DNA from: a virus
IMG/VR virus record: IMGVR_UViG_3300044627_003127
Span: 1-34,139 of that record
Reading direction: 5' to 3' (one strand)
DNA length: 34,139 bases
This document shows positions 15,894 through 26,645 of the stretch, piece by piece (positions within the stretch are counted from its first letter, which is position 1; each line of letters opens with the position of its first letter). Below the pieces are notes generated by a model. That model saw only the letters and a list, made by a program, of their open reading frames with translations, was not told the DNA's origin and did no database searches. The translations under genes were made by a program, and so were the position numbers.

Positions 15894-16622
15894 TTGTTAG
15901 AATTTAGAGTCGATTGGGAAGAATATGGTCTAGGTGAAGACCATCACCTCCATATGTTTAAGCCTGTACCAGCAGTCAAAATGTTGCCAGAATGGTTCAA
16001 AAGGCTAGGAGAAGATTCTGGCTGTGAGCATAATAATTGGCCTACCGCTAAAACCTGTAGAGGCGTTTTTGATTCTATGTCTAGCGGCTACATTATTAAA
16101 TGGCCTTTTGACGTAAGAATACAAAGGGACGAGAATGGTAGACTTTTCTGCTATAAGTCACGAACGGGAGACAACCATGACTTCAAGCCTCATCCACACT
16201 ATCAATTAGAAGGATATCCAGATTTATTATTAGAATCTCAAAGAGACGGTATACAAAAACTCAATCTACCGTATAGGGTTAGAACTCCTGCTGGGACCAG
16301 TATTTTGATGAAGCAGCCAGCATATAGGCCAGACCTAAAAACTGAAGCAATGGAAGGTATAATAGATACCGATAAATTCTATGGAACCTTTAATGTACTA
16401 TTTAACATTAAAAAAATAGATACAAAGAGAAAAGTTGTAATTCCCGCTGGAACTCCGTTGGCTCAAGTTATTCCATTTGTTAGAGGAGAATGGGAGATTT
16501 CATATGGAGAGATTGATCAAGATAAAAAAAAGATCAATGATGATCTAGCAGACAATATAGAAAAGTTTTATCAAAAATATCAATGGGAAAGGAAGATATT
16601 TAAAAATGAAGCAGTTGACTAA
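15894..16622 (+). CDS. Phage protein of unknown function, paralogue A, 242 aa
   Basis: I do not recognise a named family with certainty. Landmarks are PVPAVKMLPEWFKRLG (about 24-39), TCRGVFDSMSSGYIIKWPFDVRI, PYRVRTPAGTSILMKQPAYRPD, GIIDTDKFYGTFNVLFNIKK and VVIPAGTPLAQVIPFVRGEWEISY. The same landmarks in weaker form occur in the leftward protein at 17237-17950 (IPEWYKK, PVFDYLSYGLTLHFPF, DAGTPFMKVIFVKR), so the two are paralogues. The PAGTPLAQ strand pattern suggests a jelly-roll or cupin-like beta fold. Start is TTG at 15894 with AGGAAA upstream. It overlaps the downstream oxygenase-like gene by 17 bases, which implies a functional link. Confidence 0.7.
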   Translation: MLEFRVDWEEYGLGEDHHLHMFKPVPAVKMLPEWFKRLGEDSGCEHNNWPTAKTCRGVFDSMSSGYIIKWPFDVRIQRDENGRLFCYKSRTGDNHDFKPHPHYQLEGYPDLLLESQRDGIQKLNLPYRVRTPAGTSILMKQPAYRPDLKTEAMEGIIDTDKFYGTFNVLFNIKKIDTKRKVVIPAGTPLAQVIPFVRGEWEISYGEIDQDKKKINDDLADNIEKFYQKYQWERKIFKNEAVD

Positions 16623-17262
16623 TTTACCCCCAGGTATTGAAATATTCTCTAATATTATTTCTTACTCAGAGGCAGATGCCATGGTAGATATTATAGAGAG
16701 TGCTATTGATACAAAAAATAACTGTAATTTACAGTGGGGTCTTCCAAAAATGCACTCACCTGACATTTCTTCACTAAGAAGAAATGATGCTGTCGCTGTT
16801 TCAGAGCATACCTTTCTTAACGCAGATTGTTCATGCGGACTTAAAGAAATAGACTCAACATTAGGTAAATTAATGTTAAAGTGTCTAGAAAAATATGTAT
16901 CTAAATATGACATTGGAATAACACAAGACGAGGGGTTTTATTGTGTTAAATATGATAAGTCACATGTTGATTTTGGAGTGGTAGACGATAATCCTTTTGT
17001 CAATAGAGTGGTTTCTATGCATATGCCATTAAATATAAATGAGCCAACAGAGTACATTAAATTTAAAAATTTAGATTTTTCTATTAGTATCTCATCACCA
17101 TCAATTATTTTATTTCCATCCAATTTTCTTTTTTCATACGAAAAACCCTATACAGAGGGTCTATATGAAATTCAAAACTTTTTTAATAATAACCCAGACA
17201 ATCAATTCTTTGATAAAATTTTTGGCGAAGAGGTTTCTATTTCTTTGGAAAAATCTGATTAG
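16606..17262 (+). CDS. Degenerate 2-oxoglutarate/Fe(II) oxygenase-like protein, 218 aa
   Basis: It is a diverged paralogue of the oxygenase at 20994. Shared landmarks are YDIGITQDEGFYCVKYDKSHVDFG (about 101-124; the paralogue reads YEINITQDE...YHVD), VVSMHMPLNINEPTEY (paralogue VLSGLIYLNPTEYEGGE) and SSPSIILFPSNFLF (paralogue EPSIVLFPSNYIY). The His-x-Asp pair (H120, D122) is kept. The distal His ligand is replaced: the aligned position reads SYEKPYTEG, with Tyr178 where the paralogue has KHAAMPVTSG (His161). The EGGETHF block is also lost. It probably cannot hold Fe in the normal way. It may be a non-catalytic binding partner. The 3' end overlaps a convergent gene by 26 bases. Confidence 0.7.
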   Translation: MKQLTNLPPGIEIFSNIISYSEADAMVDIIESAIDTKNNCNLQWGLPKMHSPDISSLRRNDAVAVSEHTFLNADCSCGLKEIDSTLGKLMLKCLEKYVSKYDIGITQDEGFYCVKYDKSHVDFGVVDDNPFVNRVVSMHMPLNINEPTEYIKFKNLDFSISISSPSIILFPSNFLFSYEKPYTEGLYEIQNFFNNNPDNQFFDKIFGEEVSISLEKSD

Positions 17263-17950
17263 TTCTAAGGTTTCTATAAAAACCAGAGCCAAAACTTTCA
17301 ACAAAGTGTCGGGTTTGTTGAATAAACCCTTTATCAGAACCAAACTTCTTATAGTTTAAACTAATGCTATCTCTTTTTACAAAGATTACCTTCATGAATG
17401 GAGTTCCCGCATCGATCTTTCCTTCAAAATTGCTATTAACAAGAAAAGGAAAATTAACGGGGGCTTTATATTTATCAACCTGCACCATTGCACCTATAAA
17501 TAAAAGAGGGTATCCAGTATACGGGTAGTAAGGAATATACACAGCAGAATACCCATCTGGGGCTTCAATATAAAAAGGAAAATCTACTTTATATGGAGCA
17601 TAAGAATATTCTTTTGGATATGGTAGTTCTTGCAACTGCTGGGGAGAGTGATGGCCTAGTTTACAGTTAAAGGACTCAGTGCTAGAACTTAATTGTTGGT
17701 TCAGACCAGTTCCCTCTGCATATAGAGAAAATGGAAAGTGAAGGGTCAGCCCATATGATAAATAATCAAAAACTGGCATACATCTTTTTATAGACTGCGC
17801 CTTATCTTTTTTCACAGACTTACTAAGATTATTTACATATGAATCACTTTTTTTATACCATTCAGGAATTTCATTATCGCTTTTACGAATACAATATTCC
17901 ATGAAGTCGCCACCATAAGTTTCTTCAATTGGATAAACATTAATTTCCAT
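17237..17950 (-). CDS. Phage protein of unknown function, paralogue B, 237 aa
   Basis: A leftward gene related to the protein at 15894. The order of landmarks is the same: EIPEWYKKSD, KRCMPVFDYLSYGLTLHFPFSL, PFYIEAPDGYSAVYIPYYPY, VQVDKYKAPVNFPFLV, and IDAGTPFMKVIFVKR. The N-terminus and tail differ. Start is ATG at 17950 with TAGGAA about nine bases upstream. It ends inside the 3' end of the degenerate oxygenase gene. It shares its direction with the small gene at 17966-18274, 15 bases away, so the two form a leftward pair inside a rightward region. Function unknown; duplication and inversion of paralogue A is a simple explanation. Confidence 0.7.
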   Translation of the reverse strand: MEINVYPIEETYGGDFMEYCIRKSDNEIPEWYKKSDSYVNNLSKSVKKDKAQSIKRCMPVFDYLSYGLTLHFPFSLYAEGTGLNQQLSSSTESFNCKLGHHSPQQLQELPYPKEYSYAPYKVDFPFYIEAPDGYSAVYIPYYPYTGYPLLFIGAMVQVDKYKAPVNFPFLVNSNFEGKIDAGTPFMKVIFVKRDSISLNYKKFGSDKGFIQQTRHFVESFGSGFYRNLRTNQIFPKK

Positions 17951-18309: not shown

Positions 18310-20031
18310 ATGGCAAATGCAAAAGTTGGAGGAACTTGGCGAACTGTTAAACTGCCATATGCTAGAGTTTCTGGTCAATGGAAGCCTTGTAAGCAGATGT
18401 ATGCTAAAGTCGGTGGGGTTTGGAAAATAACATTTGATATCACAGCCGCCGACCCATTTGATGGCACTGGATCATTAGATGGACAGTTGACCCCAGGATA
18501 TGCTCCCTGGGAAGTAATAAGTGGTACTTGGACAGAATCTGGTGGAAATGTATCGTCATCAGATACCTCCGATAGAGTTGCTGCACTAGAAACTGGGCTA
18601 ACAGATGTTGAAGTAGAAATTGATAGGACTACGGCAGCAACAGGCGGTGACGGAGTAGCCTTTTGGATTCAAGACCAATCGAATTGGTGGGGCGTGAGAG
18701 CGTACACTGAAGAATATTTCGTTCCATTCACTAATTTTACTTACTATCCATTTAATTGTACTGATTCATTTAGAACAAGAAATATTACACAGAATCCATC
18801 CGTTCCAGGAACAGCAATCCCTGGAACTAATAATATTGCAAGCCCAGGAAATGTTGTAACCCCTGGAAATGTAAGTGCCTTTGGAACATGTACGAATACA
18901 ACTGGGTGTACAGGAACATGTTGTTTTACCCCAGTTCCTTCTACTCCTGTTCCTGGAAGTAATAATATTGTAAATTCTGGAACATTTGTATCCTGTAACT
19001 ATTCCCTCTCTTATTTCAGTATGATTACTAATAGAAATACATTTCTTGCAACAATTTCAACTAGAACTTGTTCATGTAGTGGTAATTCAAATAGTAATTG
19101 TAGTCTTTCGTTTGGTAGTGGAGGTAATAACTGCATTAATGGTTGTGGACCAACAAATTATCCAGGCCCTAGCCCCTTTCCTTGTAATAGAAATCCAGAC
19201 AATAGATCATTCGCAACAAGAATATCTGGATGTGGGAGCGGGTGCGGACCAGCATGTGGACCAATTTGTGGAGCCTCGCCTTCGCCTAGTAATGTTAACA
19301 GCATATTTCAATTATTCTGCCCTAATGCTTCATCATATAATAATTTCTCATTTAATAATGCAAACTGTTCTTGTGCATATGGCGTTAGTGCTACTAAAGC
19401 AAACTTTACTAATAATCCACCGAATTATAATGCTCCGAATAATAACCCTGCTAGTAATAATGCCCCAAGGTTTAATAATCCACCGAGTTTTAATACTCCA
19501 ACTAATAATGTGCCAAATTATAATCCTCCAAATAATAACACCCCTACTCCAGCATCATGCACATGTACAGATGGACCAATTACTAACAGTAATTATCTTA
19601 GTTTTATATCTAGTAACGTAAGTTTTCCTGTATGTGCTAATAATATTCCATGCTCTTCAACTCAACCTACAGGAACATTATATTCACGATCATGTGTAGC
19701 ATGTCCTGCTGGGTCACCTTCTTGTATTACAAGTTTTTCAGGTGTAAATGCAGCATATTACAAACGAGGTCAAATTATTAGAAAATCTGGCGGAACATTA
19801 AATGTAATAACTAATCAAGACTTTGGCGATGTAGGAAACGTCTATGCTTATACCTCTGGGAATACAATTGGATTTAGACAATACTCAGCGACAGGTAGAG
19901 CAGGAACTTCATCAAATCTAGTAACCTATGACGCTGGTCCAATAAATAAAGGGACTAAGCATGGTATAATCGTTACCGCAGTTCCATACACTCAAAGTTA
20001 TTCTATAAGTAGATTTAAGGTGAATGTTTAA
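18310..20031 (+). CDS. Cysteine-rich, Asn/Pro-repeat appendage protein, 573 aa
   Basis: The N-terminus carries three VGGxWK/VxGxWK-type units (residues 4-43). A lectin-like stretch follows (VEVEIDRTTAATGGDGVAFWIQDQSNWWGVRAYT, about 100-135). From about 145 to 470 comes an unusual insert with about 26 of the protein's 27 cysteines, PGTNNI/SPGNVVTPGNV units, and near residues 365-414 a run of xxNxP-type pentads (YNAP, SFNTP, TNNVP, NYNPP, NNNTP). The C-terminal part (AYYKRGQIIRKSGGTLNVITNQDFGD...YAYTSGNTIGFRQYS) resumes the beta lectin-like pattern, as if the insert interrupts one domain. Likely a virion surface fibre. Leaderless promoter directly upstream; overlaps the next gene by one base. 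Confidence 0.7.
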   Translation: MANAKVGGTWRTVKLPYARVSGQWKPCKQMYAKVGGVWKITFDITAADPFDGTGSLDGQLTPGYAPWEVISGTWTESGGNVSSSDTSDRVAALETGLTDVEVEIDRTTAATGGDGVAFWIQDQSNWWGVRAYTEEYFVPFTNFTYYPFNCTDSFRTRNITQNPSVPGTAIPGTNNIASPGNVVTPGNVSAFGTCTNTTGCTGTCCFTPVPSTPVPGSNNIVNSGTFVSCNYSLSYFSMITNRNTFLATISTRTCSCSGNSNSNCSLSFGSGGNNCINGCGPTNYPGPSPFPCNRNPDNRSFATRISGCGSGCGPACGPICGASPSPSNVNSIFQLFCPNASSYNNFSFNNANCSCAYGVSATKANFTNNPPNYNAPNNNPASNNAPRFNNPPSFNTPTNNVPNYNPPNNNTPTPASCTCTDGPITNSNYLSFISSNVSFPVCANNIPCSSTQPTGTLYSRSCVACPAGSPSCITSFSGVNAAYYKRGQIIRKSGGTLNVITNQDFGDVGNVYAYTSGNTIGFRQYSATGRAGTSSNLVTYDAGPINKGTKHGIIVTAVPYTQSYSISRFKVNV

Positions 20032-20198
20032 TGTCAGAAAAAATTAATTATATTAAAGAATTACGGTCTAACAGACTTGATATTTGCAAAAATTGTGAGT
20101 TTTTTAATAAAATTACAACTCAATGCAATAAATGTGGGTGTATAATGTCTATGAAAACATTGCTTGCAGATGCAAAATGTCCTATAGGAAGGTGGTAA
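20031..20198 (+). CDS. Small six-cysteine zinc-binding-type protein, 55 aa
   Basis: The ATG overlaps the previous stop (TAATG). The protein has CKNC (residues 19-22), CNKCGC (32-37) and a last cysteine in KCPIGRW at the end. The pattern CxxC...CxxCGCxMxxK...CPxGxW is typical of small phage and bacterial zinc proteins of unknown function. The CPIGRW end is characteristic of these. It sits between two appendage-type genes and is coupled to both by tight spacing. A folding helper for the Cys-rich protein upstream is conceivable, but no sequence evidence supports it directly. Confidence 0.7.
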   Translation: MSEKINYIKELRSNRLDICKNCEFFNKITTQCNKCGCIMSMKTLLADAKCPIGRW

Positions 20199-20199
20199 C

Positions 20200-20784
20200 A
20201 TGAGAATAATATGTACAGTTGATAATTCATTTTTATTAGAAACAGAAGATGGATTAGTCTATCCATTTAATATGAATAATATTGATGTTCTGGTGGCAGA
20301 ACTATCTTTAGATATTGATGTTTGCAATGAAATAAAAAATAAAGTGCTTGATATAATGAAAGAAAAAATTGATAAGAAGCAACTGACTCAAACACTTTCT
20401 ATTGAAAAAATTGCACAGTATATTCAAAGCCTTATTTTATTAAATGAATATATGCCAGTCCTTGAAATTCTAGATAGATCAACTAGAACACATAAAATGA
20501 TTACTACAGACAAGCCATATGAAACATGGCAGTGGGACTATCAAAAAGAAGAATATGTAGCACCTATGCCATACCCAACAAAATTAGTAGAGTCTGAGCC
20601 AGATAAATATATTTGGAATGATGACTCTCTTTCATGGGAACCTGCTGAACCAGCCCCACATAGAGGTTGGCTGTGGGATTATGCTAAAGAAAAGTATACT
20701 TCTCCCGTACCATATCCATTAGATGCAGAACCAGATGAATTTAAGTGGGATGAAGAAAAAATGTTATGGGTGGTTAATGACTAA
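20200..20784 (+). CDS. Trp/Tyr/Pro repeat protein, possible fibre accessory, 194 aa
   Basis: The N-terminal half is mixed (TVDNSFLLETEDGLVYPFN) followed by helices (CNEIKNKVLDIMKEKIDKK). The C-terminal half contains two copies of a repeat of about 45 residues: WQWDYQKEEYVAPMPYP...EPDKYIWNDDSLSWEP (about 107-148) and WLWDYAKEKYTSPVPYP...EPDEFKWDEEKMLWV (about 153-192). Similar W/Y/PYP units occur in phage tail-fibre-linked proteins that are poorly understood. AGGAAGGTGG precedes the start. It lies between the Cys-rich appendage gene and a small membrane gene. A fibre assembly chaperone or a surface-exposed adaptor are the best guesses. Confidence 0.6.
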   Translation: MRIICTVDNSFLLETEDGLVYPFNMNNIDVLVAELSLDIDVCNEIKNKVLDIMKEKIDKKQLTQTLSIEKIAQYIQSLILLNEYMPVLEILDRSTRTHKMITTDKPYETWQWDYQKEEYVAPMPYPTKLVESEPDKYIWNDDSLSWEPAEPAPHRGWLWDYAKEKYTSPVPYPLDAEPDEFKWDEEKMLWVVND

Positions 20785-20992
20785 ATGGGTAAACTTATAC
20801 ATCTTCCTGTTTTTAATTAATATAATTACTTTAATATTTTTTAACCTATCTATAATATTTACATCTTTACTTGTAATTTCAGCAGGCATTGTGATATATT
20901 TTTCATATAAAAATAAAACTACATCTATCGTTCATGTAGTAATGCTACTACTATCAATATTATTGTTAGTATTATCTATAATAAGGGTTTAA
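20777..20992 (+). CDS. Small membrane protein, 71 aa
   Basis: I chose the ATG at 20777 (MTKWVNLYIFLF), which overlaps the end of the previous gene and has GGGTGG upstream. The protein has about three hydrophobic segments (residues 5-21, 23-42 and 51-70) with a single basic loop (YKNKTTS). No family is recognised. Membrane targeting is clear, but the role is open. It is followed two bases later by the oxygenase gene, so the two are probably co-translated. A holin-like or host-membrane-modifying role is possible but unsupported. Confidence 0.55.
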   Translation: MTKWVNLYIFLFLINIITLIFFNLSIIFTSLLVISAGIVIYFSYKNKTTSIVHVVMLLLSILLLVLSIIRV

Positions 20993-20993
20993 T

Positions 20994-21596
20994 ATGACTA
21001 AAAAAATACTGGCTCCAGGAGTTGTTCAATATCCATTTCCAAAAAAATTAGCCAGAAGTTTAATCGATATGCTTGAAAGTGATGATAGTGTACCCTGGGA
21101 CAGAAGCCTTGTTGGTACTAATGGGCACTCTAGCGATGTAAGAACAAGTGAGCAGATAGCACTTGAAGCAGAAATGCCAATTGCAGCGTCAAAAATAAAA
21201 GAAGTCTTTATTGAGTGTGTTAAAGAATATATGGAAGATTATGAAATTAATATTACTCAGGACGAGTCGCTAGTTCTACTTAGATATAGCGAGTATAATA
21301 AGTACGACTATCATGTAGATGCAAATTGGAATTTATACAGAGTTTTATCAGGTCTTATTTATTTAAACCCAACAGAATATGAAGGCGGCGAGACCCACTT
21401 TGATCAGTTTGATTTATCAATTAATCCTGAAGAACCATCAATAGTTTTATTTCCATCAAATTATATCTATAAACATGCTGCTATGCCAGTTACTTCTGGG
21501 GTAAAATATATTATTGTTACATGGATGAATGACTTACCACCAGGAATTCATCCAACCATTATAAATTCTATTGCACATGCGACAGGAAGACATTAG
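20994..21596 (+). CDS. 2-oxoglutarate/Fe(II)-dependent oxygenase (prolyl-4-hydroxylase-like)
   Basis: The 200-aa enzyme has the full double-stranded beta-helix signature of the prolyl-4-hydroxylase/P4Hc family. YHVDANW holds His107 and Asp109, LIYLNPTEYEGGETHF is the family's characteristic segment (about 121-136), PSIVLFPSNYIYKHAAMPVTSGVKY holds the distal His161 and the 2-oxoglutarate-binding basic residue Lys171. The family hydroxylates Pro, Lys or other residues in proteins, or small substrates. The substrate here is unknown. Cyanophage and other phage homologues are common near fibre genes. It is encoded just after the Cys/Asn/Pro-rich appendage, the W/Y/P repeat protein and a small membrane protein. 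Motif quality makes activity likely. Confidence 0.88.
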   Translation: MTKKILAPGVVQYPFPKKLARSLIDMLESDDSVPWDRSLVGTNGHSSDVRTSEQIALEAEMPIAASKIKEVFIECVKEYMEDYEINITQDESLVLLRYSEYNKYDYHVDANWNLYRVLSGLIYLNPTEYEGGETHFDQFDLSINPEEPSIVLFPSNYIYKHAAMPVTSGVKYIIVTWMNDLPPGIHPTIINSIAHATGRH

Positions 21597-22477: not shown

Positions 22478-22801
22478 ATGGGACTACAAGTAGTAAGAGA
22501 TAAGAGCAATTACGGTATATATGTATGGCTTCTGCCAGAAGGCGGAGTTTTTAAGGATGATGATAATAACGTTCTTAATATTCCTTCTGAAAAAGGAGAT
22601 ATCACAAAGATGGCGGAGATTCGTAAAGTCGCCGCTCATTATGGACAGCCAGAAGGACAAGCAGTATTCATTCCTGGAATTGGTCGGGTAACAGAAGAAG
22701 AATACCAAGAAGACAAGTATAGAATGGAAAATGGCCTTCTATCTTATGGAGATACGGGAGCGTGGAGAGATGCAGCAAGAGCAAAAAGATCTCTGGATTG
22801 A
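22478..22801 (+). CDS. Small protein upstream of portal, 107 aa
   Basis: I do not recognise the family. Landmarks are GIYVWLLPEGGVFKDDDNNVLNIPSEKGDITKMAEIRKVAAHYG, QAVFIPGIGRVTEEEYQEDKYRMENGL and the tail DTGAWRDAARAKRSLD. A protein of this type lies directly upstream of the portal gene in some actinophages, in a place where a terminase gene would otherwise be expected. It overlaps the portal start by 32 bases. It is hydrophilic, with no membrane segment. It may be a structural or packaging accessory protein; this is context only. Confidence 0.6.
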   Translation: MGLQVVRDKSNYGIYVWLLPEGGVFKDDDNNVLNIPSEKGDITKMAEIRKVAAHYGQPEGQAVFIPGIGRVTEEEYQEDKYRMENGLLSYGDTGAWRDAARAKRSLD

Positions 22802-24401: not shown

Positions 24402-26645
24402 ATGATTATTAATAAAGCGCATTTCGATGTAGACGGAGACAGTCTTCGTCTTACAATGCCTATTGCTAAAGTCGATGAAGAACGTCGAATTGTTAGCGGA
24501 TTTGCTACATTAGATAATGTAGATCGTCAGGGGGATGTTTTATTAACAGAGGCTTCTCGTAAAGCATTTGAAAATTTCCGAGGTAATGTACGTTTAATGC
24601 ACCAACCAATTCCTGCTGGAAAGATTGTTTCATTTAGAGAGAATACCTTCTATGATAAGCAATCTGGAAAAATGTACAGCGGCATCTTTGTTGATGCATA
24701 TATTTCTAAAGGTGCTGAAAACATCTGGCAAATGGTTCTAGACGGTACGCTTACAGGTTTTTCAATTGGTGGCAGGATTGTAGACTACGAAACAAAAATG
24801 GATGACGGTGAAGAACATCCAGGGGTAAGAGTCGTAAAAGAATATGAACTAATGGAACTATCTCTAGTCGATTCCCCCGCAAATCAATTTGCTAATATTC
24901 TTTCTATCCAAAAACTTGGTGATGAAGTTATCACTTCAGGCATCGCTACTGAATTTTCTACTGAAAATGTATTCTGGTGCAGCGCAGATAAAATTGCGCT
25001 AACTGAAAAATCAGACTCATTCAAATGCCCAGCATGTAATTCAGAAATGATTGAAATTGGCTGGGTAGAATCATCAGACGTTAATAAAAATCAAGAGATA
25101 GGCAAACTTGTTGACGCTCTCATTAAAGCAGAATCTTTAAGTGTAGGGGACTTTGTTTCATGGAATTCAAGTGGTGGAACGGCTAGAGGTAAAGTAGAGA
25201 GAATTGCCCGTTCTGGCTCCATCAATGTCCCCGATTCAGATTTTACTATTAATGCAGAGGAAGGAGATGCAGCCGTACTTATTAGGGTTTATCGTAAAGG
25301 TGCAGAAGGCTGGGCAGCATCAGATACTCGCGTCGGACATAAAATGAGTACGCTTAGAAGAATCTCCTCCCTTGATAAAATGCATCATGAAGATATGGAA
25401 GATGATGTAGAGGATGATATGGATGATGAGGATGTAAGAAAAGAAACTGTTACTAATGAAGTAACTCCTAATCGTAATGCTCAACAGGGCCTTCCTAGTG
25501 GCATTGCCCGTCCATCTAAAAAGAAAAAGATTAAGTATAAGAAAGAAGCAGGAGATATTGTTTCTGGAGACTATGTTGCCTTTACAGAAAATGCTAAATT
25601 AGTAAAGGGTCGTGTCGATGTATTAGAAAATACTGTGGCGGCAGTAAGAGTGTATAACAATGAGTCAGACAATAGATTCCGTCCGACAGATACACTAATA
25701 ACAAAAAATATTTCAGACTTAACAAAAATTAAATTAGCCAGCAAAGTAGTTATTAAATCACTTGCGGCAGAGGATGAAGATCATCTAAATTCCTTAATTT
25801 CTCAGCATAATGAAAAATATGGTAATGTTGCTTTTAAGAGTGTCACATTTGATGCCATTCGTCAAGTTTTTGAAAGAGGGGTTGCTGCATTTAAAAGCAA
25901 CCCCATGATGAATAAATCAAATGAGTACTCACCTGAACAATGGGCGTATGCAAGAGTAAATGCTTTCTTGCAGGCGGTAAGAACAGGGAAATACAAAAAT
26001 AGACCATATGACACAGATTTGTTGCCAAAGGGTCACCCATTGACAACGGAAAAGTCAGACGAACTAGAGGAAAACAGTTTGGCTTTACAAAAAAGAGAAG
26101 GAGGTGTTGAAATGGCTGAAGATACAACAAGCCATGAAGAACTTGACACCGCCGAGGCTGCAATCGAGGCTTCTGAAGAAGTTACGTTTGAGGTAGAAGA
26201 AACTGTAGAGGACGTAGTTACGGAAGCCCTTGCAATGGCTAAGTCCGATGGTGTTGAGGCTGAAGTTGCCGAGGACACCACCTCTGACGTTTTCGATATG
26301 GAAAAGGCCCTTGGCGAGGTTAAGTCCTTCGTAGAAGAGACAATTACCAAGTCCACTGAAACAAATACCGAGTCACTTGACAAGATTTCCAGTGCAGTAG
26401 TCGAACTTGCTAAGGCAGTCGATGAAAAAATTGGACAACTACAAGCCAAGTATGAAGAGGTTACAAAAAGTTTATCCGATCTCAATTCCGCCGCGACTGA
26501 AATCGCTACCCGCGTGGAGTCTGTAGAGGAAGAGACGGCTATGAAGAAGTCTGGTGAACTGGAATCCAGTATCCCAGAGCAACCCGTAATGAAGAAATCA
26601 TTATGGGGCGGACGCTTCCTCAGTTCCGCAGAATTATTTAACTAA
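24402..26645 (+). CDS. Prohead protease fused to accessory domains and scaffold, 747 aa
   Basis: The N-terminal ~170 residues are a phage prohead protease of the XkdF/S78 type: RRIVSGFATLDNVDRQGD, RLMHQPIPAGKIV with the likely catalytic His (67), and TGFSIGGRI with the likely Ser (121). Then follow a zinc-ribbon-like part (FWC...CPACNSEM, about 191-216), a Tudor/HVA1-like part (VGDFVSWNSSGGTARGKVERI, about 248-268), an Asp/Glu-rich linker, a second beta part (SGDYVAFTENAKLVKGRV, about 388-405), and an ARVNAFLQAVRTGKYKNRPYDTDLLPKGHP segment. The last ~177 residues are an acidic coiled coil resembling scaffold. The start has a TATAAT 9-14 bases upstream and no clear ribosome-binding site. Length greatly exceeds an ordinary protease. 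Confidence 0.85.
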   Translation: MIINKAHFDVDGDSLRLTMPIAKVDEERRIVSGFATLDNVDRQGDVLLTEASRKAFENFRGNVRLMHQPIPAGKIVSFRENTFYDKQSGKMYSGIFVDAYISKGAENIWQMVLDGTLTGFSIGGRIVDYETKMDDGEEHPGVRVVKEYELMELSLVDSPANQFANILSIQKLGDEVITSGIATEFSTENVFWCSADKIALTEKSDSFKCPACNSEMIEIGWVESSDVNKNQEIGKLVDALIKAESLSVGDFVSWNSSGGTARGKVERIARSGSINVPDSDFTINAEEGDAAVLIRVYRKGAEGWAASDTRVGHKMSTLRRISSLDKMHHEDMEDDVEDDMDDEDVRKETVTNEVTPNRNAQQGLPSGIARPSKKKKIKYKKEAGDIVSGDYVAFTENAKLVKGRVDVLENTVAAVRVYNNESDNRFRPTDTLITKNISDLTKIKLASKVVIKSLAAEDEDHLNSLISQHNEKYGNVAFKSVTFDAIRQVFERGVAAFKSNPMMNKSNEYSPEQWAYARVNAFLQAVRTGKYKNRPYDTDLLPKGHPLTTEKSDELEENSLALQKREGGVEMAEDTTSHEELDTAEAAIEASEEVTFEVEETVEDVVTEALAMAKSDGVEAEVAEDTTSDVFDMEKALGEVKSFVEETITKSTETNTESLDKISSAVVELAKAVDEKIGQLQAKYEEVTKSLSDLNSAATEIATRVESVEEETAMKKSGELESSIPEQPVMKKSLWGGRFLSSAELFN
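26098..26106 (+). promoter_or_regulatory. Internal ribosome-binding site for nested scaffold
   Basis: AAGGAGGTG, a near-consensus Shine-Dalgarno, lies five bases before an in-frame ATG (26112) inside the protease gene. It is stronger than the signal at the gene's own start. Confidence 0.75.
26112..26645 (+). CDS. Nested scaffold protein, in frame within the protease gene
   Basis: An in-frame ATG at protease residue 571, with a strong ribosome-binding site five bases upstream, would make a separate 177-aa protein. It begins MAEDTTSHEELDTAEAAIEAS. It is highly acidic and predicted to form coiled coils (VKSFVEETITKSTETNTESLDKISSAVVELAKAVDEKIGQLQAKYEEVTKSL), and ends PVMKKSLWGGRFLSSAELFN. Position and character match nested scaffolds such as lambda Nu3 inside gene C. 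The codon use also becomes GC-richer here and resembles the capsid gene. The conserved-looking C-terminal hook (SLWGGRFLSSAELF) could bind the capsid protein. Confidence 0.7.
   Translation: MAEDTTSHEELDTAEAAIEASEEVTFEVEETVEDVVTEALAMAKSDGVEAEVAEDTTSDVFDMEKALGEVKSFVEETITKSTETNTESLDKISSAVVELAKAVDEKIGQLQAKYEEVTKSLSDLNSAATEIATRVESVEEETAMKKSGELESSIPEQPVMKKSLWGGRFLSSAELFN

Follow-up and report, generated by a model that had tools for sequence, protein, structure and literature searches.

The 34,139-nt IMG/VR record IMGVR_UViG_3300044627_003127 (hereafter the window, analysed over its full length) comes from a freshwater phage and carries, within positions 18310–21596, a gene for a tail or appendage protein with a lectin-like fold followed by one for a prolyl 4-hydroxylase (P4H)-like, 2-oxoglutarate (2OG)/Fe(II)-dependent oxygenase. 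Across related viral loci, lectins with a hypervariable loop are repeatedly paired with modifying enzymes. At the level of genes this result holds up, and it makes a stronger case than did a preliminary description of the window, which had proposed the appendage repeats as the oxygenase substrate from proximity and composition. On balance, we favour the view that these genes form a module for modifying virion proteins, in which the oxygenase hydroxylates side chains in the lectin insert; its target is probably the phage's own tail and not the metabolites of the host.

Recurrent pairing of a putative tail lectin with oxygenases

An alignment scan identified 75 viral loci encoding relatives of the lectin, which were collapsed to 26 clusters with <60% identity between clusters. 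In 13 of these, an oxygenase gene starts no more than 4.5 kb downstream of the lectin gene, compared to 4.6 when genes were drawn at random from the same loci; none of 3000 such draws reached 13. Oxygenase genes upstream of the lectin are not enriched (2/26 clusters versus 3.9 random). Distance was measured in bases because a limit of five genes missed the clade orthologous to the window, in which the oxygenase lies six to seven genes on. As PF13640 misses some oxygenases (the L041 group), absences by Pfam were rechecked with phrog_61 and our own hidden Markov model (HMM). All six orthologous contigs that span both genes retain the pair, and a second contig (L003/L008) carries a cluster arrangement identical to that of the window.

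The oxygenases near the lectin belong to several subfamilies: the clade of the window enzyme is P4H-like with a Lys, whereas others have an Arg and different N-termini. When adjacency to the lectin was placed as a label on a tree of 71 oxygenase sequences, it changed at least eight times, with 11 changes most parsimonious. Because the adjacent enzymes come from several subfamilies and the label changes so often, these data point to repeated recruitment of oxygenases beside the lectin, not to one inherited linkage. The link that had been drawn from proximity thus extends further: it is directional in 13 of 26 divergent clusters, involves several oxygenase subfamilies and is accompanied by an association of the lectin family with GT60 glycosyltransferases (see below).

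An intact P4H-like oxygenase and its degenerate paralogue

The proposed modifying enzyme (200 residues; 20994–21596, plus strand) matches PF13640 (2OG-FeII_Oxy_3) with 51.1 bits against a cut-off of 27. The HxD...H iron triad (H107, D109, H161) and the 2OG-anchoring K171, 10 residues past the distal His, are present as first described and are invariant among the aligned orthologous relatives. PDB profile matches are mostly prolyl 4-hydroxylases (best 1e-14). The closest solved relatives are P4H-like enzymes of Bacillus (5hv0, 3itq, 5iax), which align over the catalytic core and differ in being cellular and of low identity to the phage protein. Similarity to solved P4Hs suggests that the window oxygenase may hydroxylate peptidyl proline.

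A paralogue that had gone unnoticed (16606–17262, plus strand; own HMM E = 5e-37) sits between two DUF6065 genes and falls with the P4H-like clade on the tree, on a long branch. Alignment shows that it has lost the HxD, distal His and Lys, i.e. the iron and 2OG ligands, and because the metal ligands are gone we rejected it as a second active oxygenase. Single phage contigs hold up to seven PF13640 genes, interleaved with tail-fibre and DUF6065 genes (L013, L010, L014 and other orthologous contigs).

A lectin frame with a hypervariable insert

The proposed substrate (18310–20031, plus strand) has 573 residues, including 27 Cys, 48 Pro and 69 Asn. AlphaFold2, run on a 24-row alignment, yields a confident β-strand-rich frame (residues 45–145 and 456–572; predicted local distance difference test, pLDDT, mostly 85–97), and residues 150–454 (18757–19671, plus strand) are predicted to form an unstructured loop, with pLDDT ∼30 throughout. 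In Foldseek searches of the PDB, the model's top matches were legume lectins and the CBM2 module of the phage J-1 distal tail protein (E = 7e-3 to 1e-1, best probability 0.99, low template-modelling score); these modest scores are probably due to the insert splitting the lectin fold. No Pfam family matched the protein, the LamG profile included. As modelled, it is a ConA/LamG-like jelly-roll in which a 305-residue insert takes the place of one loop, and the resemblance in fold suggests that this putative lectin could bind carbohydrate. Its location in the tail-fibre region and the tail-fibre neighbours of its relatives, whose upstream genes match tail-fibre PHROGs, lead us to infer that it belongs to the tail.

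Among the relatives, the frames retain FWVTDANNWW and similar motifs, and the inserts differ completely. Insert types include Cys octads (CNxFNPPT, L020–L025), pentads (YNCNP, L041) and Cys-free runs of Tyr/Thr/Ser/Pro (L104, L116). Judged by alignment, these proteins are a phage family with hypervariable inserts. No relative was found in the cultured-phage collection by tblastn, no cellular one was confirmed in a scan of 84,980 species genomes with one peptide pattern, and a literature search for lectin-like proteins in the tails of freshwater actinophages found no paper. The Cys-spaced octads of the L023 and L024 inserts are rich in N-x-S/T (e.g. WNAST, WNASN), which may reflect composition only.

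Which residues might be modified

The insert of the window protein contains 23 Cys, 37 Pro and 56 Asn. A non-overlapping scan of the whole protein counts ten xxNxP units, of which residues 366–412 (19405–19545, plus strand) hold eight; the repeats lie within one loop of the lectin-like fold, a placement absent from the preliminary description. NxP occurs 13 times in the insert compared to 6.8 in shuffles (P = 0.008), and Pro pairs spaced 5 or 6 apart are over-represented (P ∼ 0.003). No other stretch in the 14 window proteins scanned is as dense in Pro as the xxNxP block (13/50 residues).

The pentads are not conserved in orthologues. NxP counts in the orthologous clade are 13, 6, 3, 3, 1, 0 and 2, and the oxygenase is kept in all. 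We therefore rejected xxNxP as the defining target, since L024 has no NxP and retains the oxygenase. Of the substrate originally proposed, support extends to the appendage, whose link to the oxygenase recurs, and not to the pentads. Phages that keep the oxygenase without any Pro/Asn-repeat protein had been named as counter-evidence; L024 provides such evidence against the pentads, but it does not count against the appendage. In part of the clade, the site [AN]PP[FY]GF (L020–L023) may be a better candidate. A collagen-type substrate was also rejected, as no window open reading frame (ORF) contains a (Gly-x-x)5 run, in a record that may be incomplete. One contig (L066) has a lectin homologue and no PF13640 match; a few genes downstream of that homologue, a protein with a collagen-like Gly-X-Y run is encoded (L066:12115–12741).

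GT60 glycosyltransferases in related phages

In four orthologous contigs (L022–L025), a GT60 (PF11397) enzyme scoring above the cut-off is encoded two genes upstream of the oxygenase, in the order lectin, short ORF, DUF6171, short ORF, DUF6065, PF11397, DUF6065, oxygenase. A separate scan for GT60 that took no account of the lectin recovered 56 loci, which fall into 30 clusters; an alignment was used here, a single-sequence scan having recovered only the query itself. The tail lectin lies within eight genes of GT60 in 19/30 clusters (12.5 random, P ∼ 0.001), the oxygenase within two genes in 8/30 (1.8 random) and DUF6065 within two genes in 21/30 (8.0 random). A PDB profile search with the GT60 protein gave no matches. 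GT60 also occurs with the lectin but without the oxygenase (L028 and most of L102–L118), and Ser/Thr may be the acceptor where the lectin lacks an oxygenase neighbour. The PF11397 family also contains a polypeptide N-acetylglucosamine (GlcNAc)-transferase of Trypanosoma cruzi.

The co-occurrence of a P4H-type oxygenase and PF11397 in the four contigs resembles the Skp1 pathway, in which a P4H (PhyA) acts with the GT60 enzyme Gnt1. In Toxoplasma, Gnt1 adds GlcNAc to the hydroxyproline (Hyp) of Skp1 and needs the P4H-hydroxylated proline (PMC6939170). The phage oxygenase and GT60 would likewise both act in the cytoplasm. Unlike that pathway, the phages have no later glycosyltransferases that we identified, the proposed substrate is a phage tail lectin instead of Skp1, and the window is without GT60.

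A candidate virion-modification module and its alternatives

In the mechanism we envisage, the tail lectin would display its hypervariable Cys/Asn/Pro-rich loop, and the oxygenase would hydroxylate loop residues in the host cytoplasm during assembly. Pro is the most likely target and Asn or another residue is possible; the choice of Pro is less certain than loop hydroxylation itself. DUF6171 would accompany the Cys-rich loop, perhaps for folding or metal binding. Relatives bearing GT60 would go on to attach GlcNAc to the hydroxylated residue, as happens on Skp1 in Dictyostelium and Toxoplasma; for the window phage, which lacks the glycosyltransferase, only hydroxylation is proposed. The benefit might lie in receptor binding, shielding or stability. 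We count the absence of a PF13640 match in Streptomyces phage BillNye, a relative by its portal, in favour of this proposal.

Several observations weigh against it. Half of the lectin clusters (13/26) have no nearby oxygenase, and some lectin contigs of 88–105 kb have no match to PF13640 or phrog_61. The contigs are fragments from metagenomes, and synteny shared within tail modules is not modelled by the random-position control behind the downstream enrichment. Oxygenase relatives are also found without the lectin (L015–L019), and one, in the cultured phage S-CRM01, adjoins uvsX. Pro/Asn content of the insert does not significantly track the oxygenase across clusters: Asn shows no difference (P = 0.76) and Pro a weak one (7.2% versus 5.1%, P = 0.065). 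Insert composition was accordingly rejected as an oxygenase predictor, with no significant signal except a weak difference in the dipeptide GP (P = 0.008, uncorrected among many tests). The 34-kb window has no PF11397/GT60 match, in a record that may be incomplete.

Another caution comes from the prolyl 4-hydroxylase of Chlorella virus PBCV-1, which differs in being the enzyme of a eukaryotic virus; we know of no tail lectin linked to it. Amino acid analysis of PBCV-1 virions found no Hyp (reference 162, as cited in the review PMC7019647), which would counsel care in modelling lectin hydroxylation.

Of the alternatives, we regard as unlikely, though the strongest of them, that the oxygenase modifies another tail-module protein, such as the Trp/Tyr/Pro-repeat protein or the downstream 278-residue LamG-like protein, the lectin being a mere neighbour. 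Several relatives have five to seven PF13640 genes spread over the tail-fibre region, the best-scoring match in cultured phage S-SCSM1 has tail-fibre genes and other oxygenases around it, and the Trp/Tyr/Pro-repeat protein is Pro-rich and adjacent. However, enrichment of the oxygenase is specifically downstream of the lectin family, and in orthologues no clear equivalent of the repeat protein sits beside the oxygenase.

Less probable still is an auxiliary metabolic role in 2OG/nitrogen balance or a role in DNA repair. Both have been proposed for cyanophage 2OG oxygenases (PMC3037559 for 2OG/nitrogen modulation, PMC2984593 for repair), and the S-CRM01 homologue beside uvsX would fit this account. 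The cyanophage enzymes (phrog_61) belong to the same superfamily, are often several per genome and in some cases lie beside tail-fibre genes; they are at most about 32% identical to the window oxygenase among the matches listed. The window gene, by contrast, has appendage genes on one side and portal genes on the other and adjoins no gene for replication or repair, its best PDB relatives are prolyl hydroxylases and not AlkB, and this explanation leaves the recurrent pairing with a tail lectin unaccounted for. Hitch-hiking without a functional link, with tail modules acting simply as hot spots of gene exchange, is the least probable account: phage tail regions are mosaic and many lectin clusters lack an oxygenase, but the order (lectin, DUF6171, [DUF6065/GT60], oxygenase) is directional and conserved, different subfamilies occupy the equivalent slot and the random-position control was exceeded.

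2OG oxygenases are common, unexplained genes in aquatic phages, with 24 in one cyanophage (PMC9602691). Because the link to one tail-lectin family recurs and is directional, a specific substrate can now be proposed and tested for some of these enzymes. If loop hydroxylation is correct, phages hydroxylate their own host-contact proteins and relatives add Hyp-type glycosylation, with implications for how receptors are recognised, for shielding and for how the eukaryotic Skp1 pathway arose in evolution. Phage enzymes have been suggested to glycosylate the phage's own virion protein in mycobacteriophage Maravista, for which the abstract mentions no 2OG oxygenase partner (PMC11256854). More tentatively, and we consider it rather doubtful, there may be a widespread system for decorating phage tails, whose target is a hypervariable, Cys-rich loop of the lectin and whose enzymes, all phage-encoded, can stand in for one another: 2OG hydroxylases, GT60 Hyp/Thr GlcNAc-transferases and flavin Trp halogenases. 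Such a system would be akin to peptide natural-product tailoring but would act on a virion protein.

Other genes of the cluster and its genomic setting

All five ORFs of the preliminary description (Cys-rich xxNxP protein, six-Cys protein, Trp/Tyr/Pro protein with two PYP units, membrane protein, oxygenase) are present in the window. The six-Cys protein (55 residues; 20031–20198, plus strand) belongs to DUF6171 (PF19668, 27.1 bits against a cut-off of 27; phrog_13558, E = 8e-15). DUF6171 lies within five genes downstream of the lectin in 22/26 clusters (4.8 expected) and is the lectin's most constant neighbour and strongest partner; it is possible that it serves as a metal-binding partner or chaperone. 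The Trp/Tyr/Pro-repeat protein (194 residues; 20200–20784, plus strand; phrog_7759-like, E = 2e-5) has PYP units at residues 124 and 171 and is no recognisable constant partner of the lectin in relatives. The small hydrophobic, putatively membrane protein (89 residues; 20723–20992, plus strand) is called from its ORF only, with a start near 20777 more likely, and matched no Pfam or PHROG family.

DUF6065 proteins flank the module, another feature missing from the preliminary description. One (15894–16622, plus strand; PF19541, 26.8 bits; phrog_7084) has a predicted dUTPase-like fold: its AlphaFold2 model has a pLDDT of 87.5, and all 50 PDB fold matches listed are dUTPases (best E = 5e-5). The second (17237–17950, minus strand; phrog_7084, E = 1e-23) is 24% identical to the first. 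We take the DUF6065 consensus SGIVDxD to resemble dUTPase motif 3. In relatives, DUF6065/phrog_7084 genes often lie close to those for GT60 and the tail lectin.

Elsewhere, the window encodes a ribonucleotide reductase, a tail-fibre region, a capsid-type structural protein, major-tail-like and tape-measure proteins, a portal (at 22731) and a head maturation protease (at 24402). Because the portal is 54% identical to those of Streptomyces phages such as BillNye (Stanwilliamsviridae), the host is likely actinobacterial. Homologues of flavin Trp halogenases were seen near tail-lectin or GT60 genes on several contigs (L063:13685–15313; L057, L058, L064, L077, L084, L132 and L139).

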